Source: an uncultured Clostridia bacterium
GTDB taxonomy: Bacteria > Bacillota > Clostridia > Christensenellales > Borkfalkiaceae
Reading direction: 5' to 3'
Assembly: GCA_944341075.1 (NCBI GenBank)
Contig: CALVLV010000001.1
Span: 1-64,000, forward strand
Length of the DNA stretch: 64,000 nt
Below the pieces are notes generated by a model. The model did not search any database and was not told the DNA's origin. It was given only the letters and a program-made list of their open reading frames with translations. The translations under genes and the position numbers were made by a program. Numbering within the stretch: position 1 is the stretch's first letter; the number at the start of each line of letters is the position of its first letter. Positions 4,621 to 40,560 of the stretch are shown here, in pieces.

Positions 4621-5118
4621 CTACAATTTTTTTTCGTATATGTAGAACAGGCCCCTGTCGCACACGGCGCTGCCTACCCTGCCGTAGCCGAATTTTTCAT
4701 AGATATGTATTGCAGCGGCATTGGTACCGAACACATCTATGCGCACGCATTGCTTGCCTGCGGCGGCAGCCTGCCTTTCGAACTCAGCAAGTATCTTCTG
4801 CCCCAAACCGTGCGACTGAAGGTCAGGCTCCACACACAGCCTGTGCAGGATCAGGTATGGCGCATCGGGATACTTCCATACAATGTGGCCGTGAACGTCA
4901 TCCTCACAGATATCGTTGGTTATAAAAAAACCGACGCATTTTCCGCCTTCATGCACAAGGTAAGTATAACCGTTTATAATGTCTCCCCTTATCATTCCGG
5001 CAGTGGGATAAGATTGGTTCCACTGGAAGATTCCGTTTTTGATGAGCTTGGCGCGGGCACGGCACATCATATCGTAAATAAAGGCATAATCGTCATCTTT
5101 TGCAAGCACAAACTGCAT
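4621..5118 (-). CDS. GNAT family N-acetyltransferase
   Basis: A 165-residue acetyl-CoA-dependent acetyltransferase. The acetyl-CoA loop is in VEPDLQSHGLGQKILAEFE, matching the R/Q-x-x-G-x-G/A motif A of the family. The C-terminal GTNAAAIHIYEKFGY is the typical motif B helix. The start at 5118 (MQFVLAKDDDY) is chosen because AAGGTGG precedes it and the longer reading frame would run back into luxS. It begins ten bases after the luxS stop, so it is the last gene of the TIR-methyltransferase/luxS/GNAT operon. The substrate cannot be told from sequence. Confidence 0.85.
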   Translation of the reverse strand: MQFVLAKDDDYAFIYDMMCRARAKLIKNGIFQWNQSYPTAGMIRGDIINGYTYLVHEGGKCVGFFITNDICEDDVHGHIVWKYPDAPYLILHRLCVEPDLQSHGLGQKILAEFERQAAAAGKQCVRIDVFGTNAAAIHIYEKFGYGRVGSAVCDRGLFYIYEKKL

Positions 5119-5128
5119 AAGCGCCACC

Positions 5129-5596
5129 TTATTCGGGATAGACGAAGCGCTTTGCAGAGGTGAGCTCTTCAAGGTAGCGCCCTATGTAGAACTTTGCCAT
5201 ATTCAGGTTCTGTTCGGAATAATTGCCGCACTCTTCGGGCTTTGCACCGGGGATATCGCCCTCAAAGCCCACTATGAACCTGCACATATCGGTGACAAGG
5301 GTATATACGTCCTCGCTTTCAAGATCGCCGAACATTACCAGATAGCAGCCCGTTCGGCAGCCCATTGGGCCGAAATAGACCACGTCGTCCTTGCGGGCGC
5401 TGTTGCGAAGATAGGTTGCGCCGAGGTGTTCTATGGTGTGCAATGCCGGCATATCTATTACCGGTTCGCGGTTGGGCGCGGTCATTCTTAAATCGAAGGT
5501 GGATACCGTGCAGCCGTTTGAACTGTCTTTGCGCGAAAGATACAGCCCGGGCAATAATTTAAGATGATTGACAGTAAAACTTGCTATTTTTTTCAT
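5129..5596 (-). CDS. luxS: S-ribosylhomocysteine lyase LuxS
   Basis: A 155-residue enzyme of the activated methyl cycle. It splits S-ribosylhomocysteine to homocysteine and DPD, the precursor of autoinducer-2. The metal site is intact: H53 and H57 in HTIEHLG and a cysteine at about 123 in EECGNYSEQNL. The catalytic glutamate lies between the two histidines, and a second cysteine is in GCRTGCY (C84). The start MKKIASF at 5596 gives normal length; the longer frame overlaps the upstream gene. It sits 17 bases behind the TIR-methyltransferase gene and ten bases ahead of the GNAT gene. LuxS recycles the by-product of methylation once a nucleosidase has removed adenine, which fits a methyltransferase neighbour. 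Confidence 0.96.
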   Translation of the reverse strand: MKKIASFTVNHLKLLPGLYLSRKDSSNGCTVSTFDLRMTAPNREPVIDMPALHTIEHLGATYLRNSARKDDVVYFGPMGCRTGCYLVMFGDLESEDVYTLVTDMCRFIVGFEGDIPGAKPEECGNYSEQNLNMAKFYIGRYLEELTSAKRFVYPE

Positions 5597-5613
5597 TTTG
5601 TTTATTATCTTCC

Positions 5614-6930
5614 TCACTTTTTGGCAACATATATTTGAAACCCGAGCGAAAAAACAAAATCTTCGCACATAAACATTTCGCTTATCCGCTCGTAATTTTC
5701 CTTATACCAGTTATACTCTTCTTCGATATCCCTATTATCGGGGTACTTTTCGTGCATCCACCGCACATCGCCGAGGATCATGCGGAAATACATATTGAAA
5801 AAGTCTTCCTTTTCGTCGTAGTTCATGCCGATAGAGGTCATACCCTCTTTTTCAAGTATTATGTTTCTATATCCCGCACGGTAAAGATTTGTATAGATCC
5901 TGCGACCGTTCTTCCTCAGGCCGGATGTTTCGTTGTTGTCGCATATGCGGTATATGCGGTCGAATACCCCTTCTTCATCAGGAAAGGCAAAATTGAGCCC
6001 GTCGTCTATATCCTTTATGATGACAACGCCGTCATCTTTGAGCATGCGCCGCAATACCCTTAACAATGCACACTTTGATTTTATATGCAACAGGAGCATA
6101 GAGATATTGATGACGTCGTACTTCTCGTACCCGCATTCGCGGCTGAACTCTGCCAGTTTATCTTCAAACTCCTCGTCTGAAATATCAAGCCTTAAAAATT
6201 TTGCCCTGCCTTCCCGCGAAAACCTTTCCGTTGCCTCGGCTATCTTCTGCCCGTCACGGTCTATGCCTGCCAGCCTGTAGTCGCGGCATACAGAAGCAAG
6301 CCTGTCCATAATCTGCGCGCCGTTGCCGCAGCCTACATCGAGAACAACGGGACACTCATAGCCTGAAAGATATTTTCTGTACACATCTATATCGAAAGTC
6401 CTGACCAGCCTGTTCTGTATCTCGAGGCGGTTGTCTTCGCGGCGACTTGAGTAATATTCACTGGTAGCGTCAGGCTTGGGCTTATTGATTTTGGATATAT
6501 GCAGGATACTTTTGTTAGCGTCTATAAACTGCTCGGCAAGATTCAGCGGAGATACAAAACTGTCGGCCTGAATAAAATTTATTCGGCGAATATAGTACAT
6601 TATTTCGTCAAACTCAGGACTGTCGGTATCCAGCTGTTCAAGGCAAAGCGTCTGTATTACAAGATTGCCGTTAGAGGCACGGCGCTTGTTGTACGCCATT
6701 TCGACCTCGTTGAGCACATGTTCAGACACTGCGGAATGTTTGCTGAGCATAAGCAGGAAAATCCTGGCCGATTCTATAGCGTCGCATATCGCTTTGGCAT
6801 AGCGGCGCGCCCCCACATCGCGCGGGGCATACCAGCAGTATACACCCTGACCTTCAAGGCAATCGACTATCTCCTTTACTTTTTCAAGATCTTCGTGGGC
6901 GTAGCTTACAAAAACCTCTTTATTTCCCAT
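5614..6930 (-). CDS. TIR domain fused to a SAM-dependent methyltransferase
   Basis: A 438-residue two-domain protein. Residues 1 to about 135 are a TIR domain: VFVSYAHEDLEKVKEI at the start, the CWYAPRDVGARRYAKAI block, then IFLLMLSKHSAVSEHVLNEVEMA. In the last motif E75 sits where the catalytic glutamate of NAD-cleaving bacterial TIR domains is expected. After a linker, residues from about 165 form a class I methyltransferase: motif I VVLDVGCGNG (about 195-204), the SAM-ribose acidic motif in LAGIDRDGQKIAEA, and a later VINISMLLLHIKSK block. No helicase, NTPase or DNA-recognition domain is visible, so the methyl acceptor is unknown. It is the first gene of an apparent operon with luxS and a GNAT gene. 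A role in stress or phage defence is inference from the TIR domain only. Confidence 0.85.
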   Translation of the reverse strand: MGNKEVFVSYAHEDLEKVKEIVDCLEGQGVYCWYAPRDVGARRYAKAICDAIESARIFLLMLSKHSAVSEHVLNEVEMAYNKRRASNGNLVIQTLCLEQLDTDSPEFDEIMYYIRRINFIQADSFVSPLNLAEQFIDANKSILHISKINKPKPDATSEYYSSRREDNRLEIQNRLVRTFDIDVYRKYLSGYECPVVLDVGCGNGAQIMDRLASVCRDYRLAGIDRDGQKIAEATERFSREGRAKFLRLDISDEEFEDKLAEFSRECGYEKYDVINISMLLLHIKSKCALLRVLRRMLKDDGVVIIKDIDDGLNFAFPDEEGVFDRIYRICDNNETSGLRKNGRRIYTNLYRAGYRNIILEKEGMTSIGMNYDEKEDFFNMYFRMILGDVRWMHEKYPDNRDIEEEYNWYKENYERISEMFMCEDFVFSLGFQIYVAKK

Positions 6931-7028
6931 ATACTACCACGTGATTATAAGTTTATATATTTATTTTACATCAAAAAGATGTAAAAGTCAATGTTGAATA
7001 ACACATAGCGCATTTTGCATATAACCAC

Positions 7029-7073: not shown

Positions 7074-7162
7074 CACCATAACATGCTTTTATCAAAATTG
7101 AAAAAGGTAAAAGATACGGCGGGATTGCTCCCGCCGTCAACTATTCAATTTGCCGATAATGA

Positions 7163-7287
7163 CCTCGTAGATGCGAGCAAGACAAGGAGCGCGCGGAATG
7201 TTGCGAAGGAGCTTACTTAGAGGTAAGTGACTGAGCAAACCCGTAAGCGCGACACAGTATTGCGAAGTATATACGAGGGCTGGCGGA
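7163..7287 (-). repeat. type-B stop-anchored intergenic repeat, copy after tuf
   Basis: A 125-bp element bounded by the inverted repeat CCTCGTA (7163-7169)/TACGAGG (7272-7278), with a nested GGAGCTTACTT...GTAAGTGACTGAG core. It shares most of its length with 60652-60777 behind nrdD. A truncated copy of the left half is at about 16536-16575, and a fragment of the end is at 22741-22760. In the transcript of tuf it starts seven bases after the stop codon with TCCGCCA and precedes the terminator, so it would be part of the tuf 3' UTR. Confidence 0.75.
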
Positions 7288-7294
7288 CGTTCTA

Positions 7295-37611: not shown

Positions 37612-40560
37612 TCACATATTTAATTTTTTTAACGCTTCTTTACAGCTTTCTGCCAAATCCTGACATTCTTCAGATAAACGATCTTTACATTGTTTAAGCT
37701 GTGGCATTACTTTTAAAATATATTCCTTTGCCAAATCAATTTTTTCAAGATTCCAATAACATATGCTTATATTATAATATGCAAAAGCAAGCAGACTTTT
37801 GAATGCCGTCATACCACAAGGAATGTGGCGCTCATAGATATCGGCAGCTTTTAATGCATAGTGCAAACATTGTTCGCTCTGATTCATATCATCATAAAAT
37901 GCAATCAGATTAGTAAGCGGTAGTACAGAAGATAATTCAAAGGATGGAGCTATCTTAACATACCGTTCATAAATATTCATCGCCTTCAAATAATAATATT
38001 CTTCCTGAAACTCAGCACACGTTGCTACTTTTCCAACTAATTCACCAAGATTATTATATACCTGCGCAAGGAGCAATTCGTATTGATCAGACTCGCTATT
38101 GGCATGATTTTCACAAATCTCCATTGCTTTTATATAACTTTGTCCAGCTTCATAATAAGATTCCCCAATTTTGCCAAAAAGCGCACACCCAAGATAATAA
38201 TAAATTTTTGCACGAGATAAATCTTCCAATGAATCACACTCTGTCAAAATATGTCTACAAAGCTCTATAGTTTTACCATAGATATCCTCAGCTTCATCAA
38301 TACAGTACGTAATATTATAAATCATTCCAAGGTAGTAATAGCACTCAACCAAATCAAGGCCGTACAATGCGACACTATTCTTTATAAGCCGTCCAAAAAT
38401 GTCGTATGCCTTCAAGCAATATTCCTCCGCTTTGTTCAATAATCTAAAGCCCCAATATACACCAACAAGAGCATTGTAACTTAAAGCCACTTTATATTCA
38501 TAAGCAAGGTTTACTTCCGCTAATCGCTTAAATATTTTCAATGCTTTTTTAAGGAAATCTTCCGCTTCTTTATAGCGCTGCATCCTAAGATATAGCATGC
38601 CAAGATCATAATTACTAGTCGCAAGGTCAGGTTCATAGACCTTAGAGTTCATTGCTGTTAACCTTTCACGTATTTCCAATGCCTTCTTAGAATAATCTTC
38701 AGCCTCTGCATAACGACGTATGTTGATATATAATGAACCAAGATTGCTATAACCTAAAGCAAGCTTAGGATCATACGCCGCGGAATTAATCGTTGCTAAT
38801 TTTTTATATTTTTCAAGTGCCTTTGTATAACACTTCTCAGCCTCTGTATAGCGATGCATATTGCTATACGTTAACCCAAAATTTGTAAAACATGATGCTA
38901 ACTCGGAATCATACGCTTCGGGGTTCACAGCAGCCAACCTTTTACTTATTTCCAACGCCTGTGCATGACATTTCTCAGCCTCTGTATAGCGATGCGTATA
39001 GTTATATAATAGTCCAAGATTGTTATAAACACTTACAAGGCTTGGCGCATACGCCGCACACGCCGCAGAGTTAGCTCCTGCCAACCTTATACGTATTTTC
39101 AGCGCTTCTGTATAACACTTCTCAGCCTCTGTATAACGATGTGTACTGTTATACAATGCTCCAAGATTATTATAAATGGTTGTAATATTGATTACCCCTG
39201 TTATGGAGTTAGCAAATCCCGACCTTTTACATATTTCCAATGCCTGCACATAGTATTTTTCCGCCTCTTTATTTCGCTGTTTAGCATCATATAATAGACC
39301 TAAAAGGTTATATAAATCCAAGACTTTTCCGCTATCCGTTTCTTTAGTACCCTTATAAAGCCCCCTAAGTTTTTGGGCATAGCTTATAGCTGCCTGATAT
39401 TGATTTTGATTATATAAATAATTAGCATAATCATACAACACATCAAGCTCAACATTATCTTCCTCAGCAAGTGTAACGGCTTCTTTATAAAGCTCATCTA
39501 TCACCACGAACCTGTCTTTTTTTGAATACATGGTTTTAAGTGTAGATATTGCAAGTCTAAGTGCTGTGATATAATCAATGGAACGCTTTTTGACGATTTC
39601 CTGCATCTTTCTGGTAAATTCCTGCGCTTTATTTATTTGTTCTTGATCACGCGCACGCTGGGCATAATAATCATTTTTAAACTGCTTGTCGGTGAGCAAG
39701 TCTATACAGCCCTGCTTATTACCCTTTTCAAGCAGTCGGTATGCCGCTGCCATGCGGGCGCTCATTTCGCCGCTTGCCAATGCCTTGCTTAAGCTGAGCG
39801 AAAGGGCAAATGTGTTTTTGCGCAGCTCGTCTATATCTTTCCCGACCTGGTCGCGCTCGGTGCACAGCTTTGCATATTTTTTATAAAATTCCGCGTCGCC
39901 TTCGCCCGACTTATATATAGGCAAAAGTCTTTCATATTCCGCATTGAGTTCGTTGTAATGCGCCAGCAAATTTTTAAGGTCTTCGCTGTTAAAAAACTCA
40001 TTCACCTTTGAAAGGTCGAGCATGTCCTTTGAAAGGTCTTCTCCGTCTACGCAACACTTATCGCCGTTTATTTCAACGCTCAAAAAGTCCATCTCCTCAT
40101 ACTTGAGCGCAAGCAAAATGCGGAGTTTTAAAGTATCCACATGGTCGAATGTACCGTAGTAATGCTTGTATTTTCCGTCCACCTCGTTAATAAAATCTTT
40201 AAGCGACTGTTCGGCCTGAACATCGCCGTGAATATTTTTGAAATATACATATATCTTGGGCTTGCCGCCATCCATAAACCTTTCCACCGCCTTGTGGAAT
40301 TCTTCCAAAGTGGCCTCCCCTGCGCGCGTATAAAACAAAAACAAACAAAGGTCGCTTTCCTGCGCAAGTTTGTTGAATTCGTCCTGCTTGCGGCCGGCAA
40401 CCATGGCGGTATCCTGAGCCTCGCATACATTGGGCACCAGCTGCACCTGATAACGGTCTATAAAAATATTGCTTAAGCGATGGATAAAGTTTTCAAGATC
40501 CATGCGTTCTTCGCGGAACTGCTCTATGGAAGAACCTATAAAAATGCTTATCTTTTTCAT
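37612..40560 (-). CDS. 982-residue protein: DUF4062/TIR-like N-terminus plus long TPR array
   Basis: The N-terminus (about 1-135) reads KKISIFIGSSIEQFREERMD, then DLCLFLFYTRAGEATLEEFHKAVERF and PKIYVYFKNI. This is the Rossmann-like layout of DUF4062/TIR-related sensor or effector domains. A charged helical spacer (about 180-330) follows, then about thirteen TPR units to the end. Several central units have a regular 46-residue period (LGLLYNYTHRYTEAEKCHAQ ... AVNPEAYD), the pattern common in bacterial proteins joined to NACHT, CHAT or TIR modules. Start MKKISIF follows GAGGT. The TPR part (37612-39550) is clearly more AT-rich than its surroundings, suggesting transfer or repeat expansion. A defence role is inference. 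Confidence 0.75.
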   Translation of the reverse strand: MKKISIFIGSSIEQFREERMDLENFIHRLSNIFIDRYQVQLVPNVCEAQDTAMVAGRKQDEFNKLAQESDLCLFLFYTRAGEATLEEFHKAVERFMDGGKPKIYVYFKNIHGDVQAEQSLKDFINEVDGKYKHYYGTFDHVDTLKLRILLALKYEEMDFLSVEINGDKCCVDGEDLSKDMLDLSKVNEFFNSEDLKNLLAHYNELNAEYERLLPIYKSGEGDAEFYKKYAKLCTERDQVGKDIDELRKNTFALSLSLSKALASGEMSARMAAAYRLLEKGNKQGCIDLLTDKQFKNDYYAQRARDQEQINKAQEFTRKMQEIVKKRSIDYITALRLAISTLKTMYSKKDRFVVIDELYKEAVTLAEEDNVELDVLYDYANYLYNQNQYQAAISYAQKLRGLYKGTKETDSGKVLDLYNLLGLLYDAKQRNKEAEKYYVQALEICKRSGFANSITGVINITTIYNNLGALYNSTHRYTEAEKCYTEALKIRIRLAGANSAACAAYAPSLVSVYNNLGLLYNYTHRYTEAEKCHAQALEISKRLAAVNPEAYDSELASCFTNFGLTYSNMHRYTEAEKCYTKALEKYKKLATINSAAYDPKLALGYSNLGSLYINIRRYAEAEDYSKKALEIRERLTAMNSKVYEPDLATSNYDLGMLYLRMQRYKEAEDFLKKALKIFKRLAEVNLAYEYKVALSYNALVGVYWGFRLLNKAEEYCLKAYDIFGRLIKNSVALYGLDLVECYYYLGMIYNITYCIDEAEDIYGKTIELCRHILTECDSLEDLSRAKIYYYLGCALFGKIGESYYEAGQSYIKAMEICENHANSESDQYELLLAQVYNNLGELVGKVATCAEFQEEYYYLKAMNIYERYVKIAPSFELSSVLPLTNLIAFYDDMNQSEQCLHYALKAADIYERHIPCGMTAFKSLLAFAYYNISICYWNLEKIDLAKEYILKVMPQLKQCKDRLSEECQDLAESCKEALKKLNM

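Follow-up and report, generated by a model that had tools for sequence, protein, structure and literature searches.

Gene content of the locus

We analysed a stretch of 64,000 nucleotides (hereafter the window) from contig CALVLV010000001.1 of an uncultured Clostridia bacterium, focusing on a gene that encodes a TIR domain fused to a predicted class I S-adenosylmethionine (SAM) methyltransferase, denoted TIR-MT. The fusion belongs to a real gene family in which GNAT acetyltransferase genes are linked to TIR-MT above background, and luxS, the gene directly downstream in the window, is likely a bystander. The features of the locus are as follows.

5614..6930, minus strand: TIR-MT fusion, 438 aa (from translation of the open reading frame (ORF), Pfam and predicted structure)
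6526..6930, minus strand: TIR domain, residues 1-135 (from Pfam, alignment and fold match)
5617..6465, minus strand: class I SAM methyltransferase domain, residues 156-438 (from Pfam, alignment and fold match)
5129..5596, minus strand: luxS, 155 aa (PF02664, E 1.8e-55), 17 nt from the fusion
4621..5118, minus strand: GNAT acetyltransferase, 165 aa (PF00583, E 3.7e-12), 10 nt from luxS
6963..6991, minus strand: promoter match of sigma-70 type, preceding the fusion (by consensus match alone)
7116..7137, minus strand: terminator-like hairpin separating the end of tuf from the TIR-MT unit (by consensus match alone)

The 438-aa translation of the fusion ORF contains no internal stop, and its predicted structure has a mean pLDDT of 88.2 and a pTM of 0.64. 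The initial annotation, whose coordinates 5129..6930 span the fusion plus luxS, had described TIR-MT followed by luxS after 17 nt and by a GNAT gene 10 nt after luxS, an architecture borne out by the ORFs and the Pfam matches. The gene neighbours at the locus are nth, GNAT, luxS, tuf and fusA, with tuf preceding the fusion; nth, tuf and fusA were named by reading their translations. Together, the terminator-like hairpin and the promoter-like match suggest that the fusion, luxS and GNAT may share one transcript. The GC content of the fusion gene is 46%, compared to 53% for the window, which begins at base 1 of contig C1 in a host genome of 1.87 Mb in 44 contigs.

A dispersed repeat of approximately 145 nt lies beside tuf (window 7150-7294) and, counting itself, matches at 31 places in the genome; a related copy occupies the same place in L097. 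Elsewhere in the window, positions 38001-40000 have low GC (0.386) and a strongly negative GC skew (-0.188) with regard to the remainder.

Spread of the fusion family

Sampling of the fusion family was centred on the order of the window's genome. Within its taxonomic family, 68 of 301 genomes gave matches, many involving just a TIR or a generic methyltransferase, and the methyltransferase profile matched in 35 of the 396 order genomes, a few of these matches being TIR-less or fragmentary. In a phylum sample of 398 genomes the window's genome alone matched, and a scan of named genomes added Bacilli metagenome-assembled genomes, Acholeplasma granularum and a Ruminococcaceae isolate. The first alignment consisted of 35 rows obtained from profile searches of fetched neighbourhoods; the order-wide search and the named records brought the set to 85 distinct homologues, and removal of L184 (weak, partial) and L182 (TIR-less) left 83 for analysis. 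The two domains stay joined in these relatives, as the initial annotation required, and recurrence of the fusion on many contigs of other genomes shows that it is no chance or assembly join. In three homologues (L164, L087 and L088) the TIR domain is missing or incomplete in frame. The search for mobile elements returned no plasmid match for the fusion and one phage match, TIR-only and covering 19% of the query. Among viral contigs, 101 pattern matches to alignment A5, which reaches closer relatives only, yielded 0 confirmed relatives.

Some loci carry altered forms of the gene. At L182 8267-9148 and L183 8655-9599 the family methyltransferase lies in ORFs too short for a TIR domain, and at L088 9757-11048 the TIR start and the methyltransferase occupy separate ORFs, so that the gene looks broken.

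Conserved residues and structural matches

TIR domains make NAD+-derived immune signals in bacteria, plants and animals. Residues 6-111 of the fusion match TIR_2 (PF13676) with E 6.5e-17 and 62.6 bits against a cut-off of 28. The glutamate E75, to which the initial annotation had drawn attention, proved invariant in all 81 homologues with a residue at that position (82 TIR rows, one gapped; L164 was not entered). It corresponds to the Glu conserved in the helix that follows strand C, which we take to be the catalytic Glu of TIR NADases, and in a profile comparison it shares its alignment column with the glutamate of the SARM1 and Cat1 TIRs. With the TIR sequence alone, the sole PDB sequence match was 6wt6 (E 0.005), and SARM1 and Cat1 were reached only by profile; the closest folds are the NADases SPARTA TIR-APAZ, AbTir and SARM1. 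These comparisons indicate that the TIR domain most likely acts on NAD+ via E75.

The C-terminal domain matches Methyltransf_31 at residues 195-334 (E 1.6e-14) and adopts a Rossmann-like class I fold according to the fold match. Its SAM-binding motif I, VLDVGCGNG at residues 196-204, is intact in the window copy, as initially noted. Residues E165 and D309 are present in 83/83 homologues and D198, R339 and R343 in 82/83 each, and the glycines of the motif are retained by most (G200 in 75/83, G204 in 70/83). The closest fold and profile match is 3mgg, a Methanosarcina mazei methyltransferase for which the match listing names no substrate. Among the structural matches listed, methyltransferases of small molecules or peptides are in the majority, with weaker matches to the METTL6 and CmoM tRNA methyltransferases. 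The domain is best described as a predicted class I methyltransferase of small-molecule type.

Relation of luxS to the fusion

We compared gene neighbourhoods at 82 family loci, among them L182 and L184; 65 of the 85 genes had at least 3 kb on each side and the median smaller flank was 7.1 kb. The initial annotation had placed luxS in an operon with the fusion and proposed to judge the linkage by whether the adjacency is unique to this strain; luxS was found at one of the 82 loci, that of the window. Subsequently, neighbourhoods were fetched for the 20 closest luxS matches. Three of them have the window's gene order with nth, luxS and tuf directly adjoining and neither TIR-MT nor GNAT between them; in the other 17, some cut by contig ends, luxS was the sole gene found of 12 window genes. 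Furthermore, 69 of the 81 genus genomes contain luxS, and TIR-MT is carried by far fewer. Near-full methyltransferase matches (E < 1e-20) were found in eight other genomes of the genus: three of these (G184, G214 and G219) gave no luxS match, and in the remaining five luxS is on a different contig. Thus luxS is likely a bystander at the window locus, and the comparison corrects a tempting link, showing that a strain-specific insertion can imitate an operon partnership.

Genes recurring beside the fusion

Operon neighbours were defined as same-strand genes reached in steps of no more than 100 nt, at most two per side. Genes were called by a home-made codon score in three GC bins, two partners of at least 1200 aa were excluded, and the ATP-grasp gene of L090, missed by gene calling, was added by hand, giving 76 scanned proteins. 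Controls were genes more than 2.5 kb away; from 566 eligible genes, 140 were drawn at random and 138 used. PF00583 (GNAT) was matched by 21 of the 76 operon neighbours and by at most 1/138 controls, as it was not among the 25 commonest control families, whose lowest count is 1. RimK ATP-grasp was matched by 4/76 (3/75 without the hand-added gene) and RyR by 2/76. Linkage of GNAT to TIR-MT, the other neighbour relation of the initial annotation, thus recurs above background, the 21 proteins belonging to 18 of 81 fusions. On the tree the GNAT label undergoes approximately eight changes, six of them forced by starred branches; labels were taken from individual Pfam scans and, for L069, L070, L074, L076, L147 and L168, from sequence clusters or by eye, and they add up to the 21 matching proteins.

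The window's genome contains 11 PF00583 matches in all. The window type of GNAT was found in only two of the 396 order genomes, the window's and G435, with matches of 27-36% identity in 16 others. In G435 the GNAT gene of locus L162, whose product is 59% identical to that of the window, shares 4 nt with the end of a TIR-MT gene, and no luxS was found at this locus. The L162 methyltransferase is also the nearest to the window's (54% identical), and its TIR is of the window's subtype (68% identical in the alignment). The window GNAT is therefore likely the partner of the fusion, as judged from its sole close relative in 396 genomes overlapping a TIR-MT gene.

In addition to GNAT, several other enzymes accompany the fusion. 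A second fusion in the window's genome (L002/L081, contig C11; 27% identical) overlaps by 4 nt with the RimK-type ATP-grasp gene downstream of it. L080 and L090 have similar pairs, and so does L164, where the methyltransferase frame lacks a TIR. In L191 and L188, the two loci with the TIRs most similar to the window's (80%), an esterase-like gene comes 6-7 nt behind the fusion; the L188 copy, the sole one scanned individually, scored just above the Pfam cut-off. L079 has an S9-type hydrolase as partner. At L073 7362-8717, a GNAT fused to a Trp/Tyr-type tRNA-synthetase domain precedes TIR-MT by 13 nt. RyR-domain proteins are encoded in the operons of L063 and L080 and, on the opposite strand, about 2 kb from the fusion in L064. 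At L063 8185-14235, five genes in a row encode a RyR-domain protein, TIR-MT, two GNATs and finally a TIR whose methyltransferase has a degenerate motif I.

Probable exchange of modules

We ran clade tests with subtypes named post hoc from the sequences and an earlier tree and with three rows relabelled by hand before the tests. The methyltransferase data rejected the SYRR type as a single clade (p 8.1e-10) and did not reject the WYAPRD type (p 0.36). The trees were inferred quickly and with no mixture model, and long-branch warnings apply to the TIR tree. These tests point to exchange of modules. The partner type partly tracks the methyltransferase clade, GNAT accompanying 5/7 rows of CYRG and ATP-grasp 3/6 rows of SYSH.

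Proposed activity and alternatives

The recurrent pairing of TIR-MT with acylating, ligating or hydrolysing enzymes (GNAT; RimK-type ATP-grasp; esterase/peptidase) suggests a shared small-molecule substrate. We tentatively favour the possibility that the TIR acts on NAD+ and is coupled to a methyltransferase of small-molecule type and to a partner that modifies, with luxS as a bystander. The fusion would then be a two-headed enzyme whose TIR would process NAD+ through E75, by cleavage, cyclisation or ADP-ribose transfer, and whose methyltransferase would, in the window strain, work with the GNAT encoded two genes downstream. Methyltransferase and partner would act on the same molecule, plausibly the TIR product or its co-substrate, and the modified molecule could serve as a stress or phage-response signal, or as a toxin. 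At the window locus luxS would have been resident first, without a role, the fusion and GNAT having been gained around it. The analysis itself demonstrates sequence conservation, GNAT linkage above background, independence from luxS and tree evidence of module exchange; the NADase activity, the substrate, the coupling of the activities and a role in defence are what we infer from these data. In a narrower and unlikely version, an NAD-derived immune messenger would be methylated by the fused domain, with an interchangeable partner (GNAT, RimK-type ATP-grasp) acylating or ligating it; if true, this would provide strain-specific messengers that could evade phage sponges or RyR-type signal-cleaving enzymes. 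Covalent attachment of a methyltransferase to the TIR, in a family that repeatedly gained acyl- or ligase-type neighbours, would indicate chemically modified NAD signals.

Several observations weigh against the favoured explanation. The glycine motif is altered in 13/83 methyltransferases and 9 look degenerate, suggesting that methylation is not required in every member, and even in L162, the nearest relative, Cys replaces the last Gly of the motif. A GNAT neighbour was not detected for 63/81 fusions, so the partner is not obligatory; in the window luxS separates the fusion from GNAT, and the window GNAT type is known from just one other genome. The Fisher value for GNAT enrichment (7.6e-10 for 21/76 versus 1/138) is overstated, as several of the 18 fusions with GNAT are closely related. 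The partner families listed (25 of 75) include neither a SIR2 nor a macro effector. PADLOC matched 82 models in the 76 operon neighbours, and of the 25 listed nearly all had one member each and many were helicase models; the 138 controls matched 23 models (mad3 in 4, mad8 in 3), and the comparison revealed no consistent defence signal. An immune role of TIR-MT is accordingly a prediction.

The degenerate members lend themselves to another explanation, whereby the TIR would deplete NAD as the effector, the methyltransferase-like domain would be a sensor or brake that binds SAM, S-adenosylhomocysteine (SAH) or a phage-made ligand without an essential catalytic function, and GNAT would be a regulator acting by acylation. 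Eight of the 9 relatives with a degenerate glycine loop also lack the acidic residue at 224 (L160 retains Glu), and all 9 keep E165, R168 and D309, as if ligand binding outlasts SAM binding; the apparent exchangeability of TIR modules would fit as well. However, most members retain the SAM motif, as expected of catalysis, and the partner type partly follows the methyltransferase clade, so that we consider a sensor somewhat unlikely. If the genes formed instead a metabolic or antibiotic-tailoring set with the TIR as a nucleosidase unrelated to immunity, the PADLOC result and the generic nature of the modifying partners would be readily explained, but the patchy spread (35/396), the within-genome paralogues, the module exchange and the empty sites resemble conflict genes and make this quite unlikely.

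An effector methyltransferase directed at a macromolecule (tRNA or a translation factor), with the TIR as trigger or oligomerisation part, is brought to mind by the METTL6 and CmoM matches and by the GNAT-tRNA-synthetase-like fusion beside the L073 TIR-MT. It appears improbable, as small-molecule and peptide enzymes predominate among the listed structural matches (the best, 3mgg, being without a named substrate) and the invariance of the TIR Glu favours a catalytic over a scaffolding role. Barely credible is the model of the initial annotation, in which the fusion supplies SAH to LuxS and ties NAD signalling to methyl-cycle flux. It can draw on the same-strand adjacency with short gaps in the window strain and on a match to methylthioadenosine (MTA)/SAH nucleosidase at another site of the genome, which at E 2.7e-16 falls short of the family cut-off. 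We rejected this coupling on the 1/82 linkage, the three empty sites and the three TIR-MT genomes without a luxS match, and the frequency of luxS in the genus likewise argues against it.

Comparison with known systems

Targeted searches of open-licence PMC text found no description of a TIR-methyltransferase fusion, and the broader literature on TIR domains, methyltransferases and phage defence may mention one. The TIR folds closest to the window TIR are those of SPARTA, AbTir and SARM1, but the window gene has no Argonaute, APAZ or ARM parts. Membership in SPARTA was rejected, as there is no short Argonaute with APAZ, the methyltransferase follows the TIR and the neighbours are luxS, GNAT and tuf. 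The C-terminal domain is nearest in fold and profile to 3mgg, whose matched chain lacks a TIR. PADLOC gave a weak match of the MADS component Mad2 to fusion residues 132-310 (E 1.9e-9); the match is likely generic, and membership in MADS was rejected, since the mad2 model also matches 1/138 controls and no mad gene set lies beside the window gene.

The RyR-domain genes in or near the TIR-MT operons of L063, L080 and L064 recall the phage RyDEP/RyR proteins, but they encode proteins of about 750 aa and accompany the fusions of relatives, not that of the window. Phage RyR-family proteins cleave or bind 2'/3' cyclic ADP-ribose, as stated in PMC13232231. The RyR neighbours would be consistent with an ADP-ribose (ADPR) signal made by the TIR, rather than a demonstration of one. 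Type II Thoeris TIRs produce His-ADPR, according to PMC12948488. TIR-MT resembles Thoeris (ThsB + ThsA) in that the invariant Glu of its TIR aligns with NADase TIRs, and in a possible NAD-derived signal. The window operon (luxS, GNAT) contains no ThsA-like effector (SIR2/macro/TM), the rest of the genome not having been searched for ThsA. What sets the window family apart from Thoeris is the methyltransferase fused to its TIR, together with GNAT, ATP-grasp or esterase partners.
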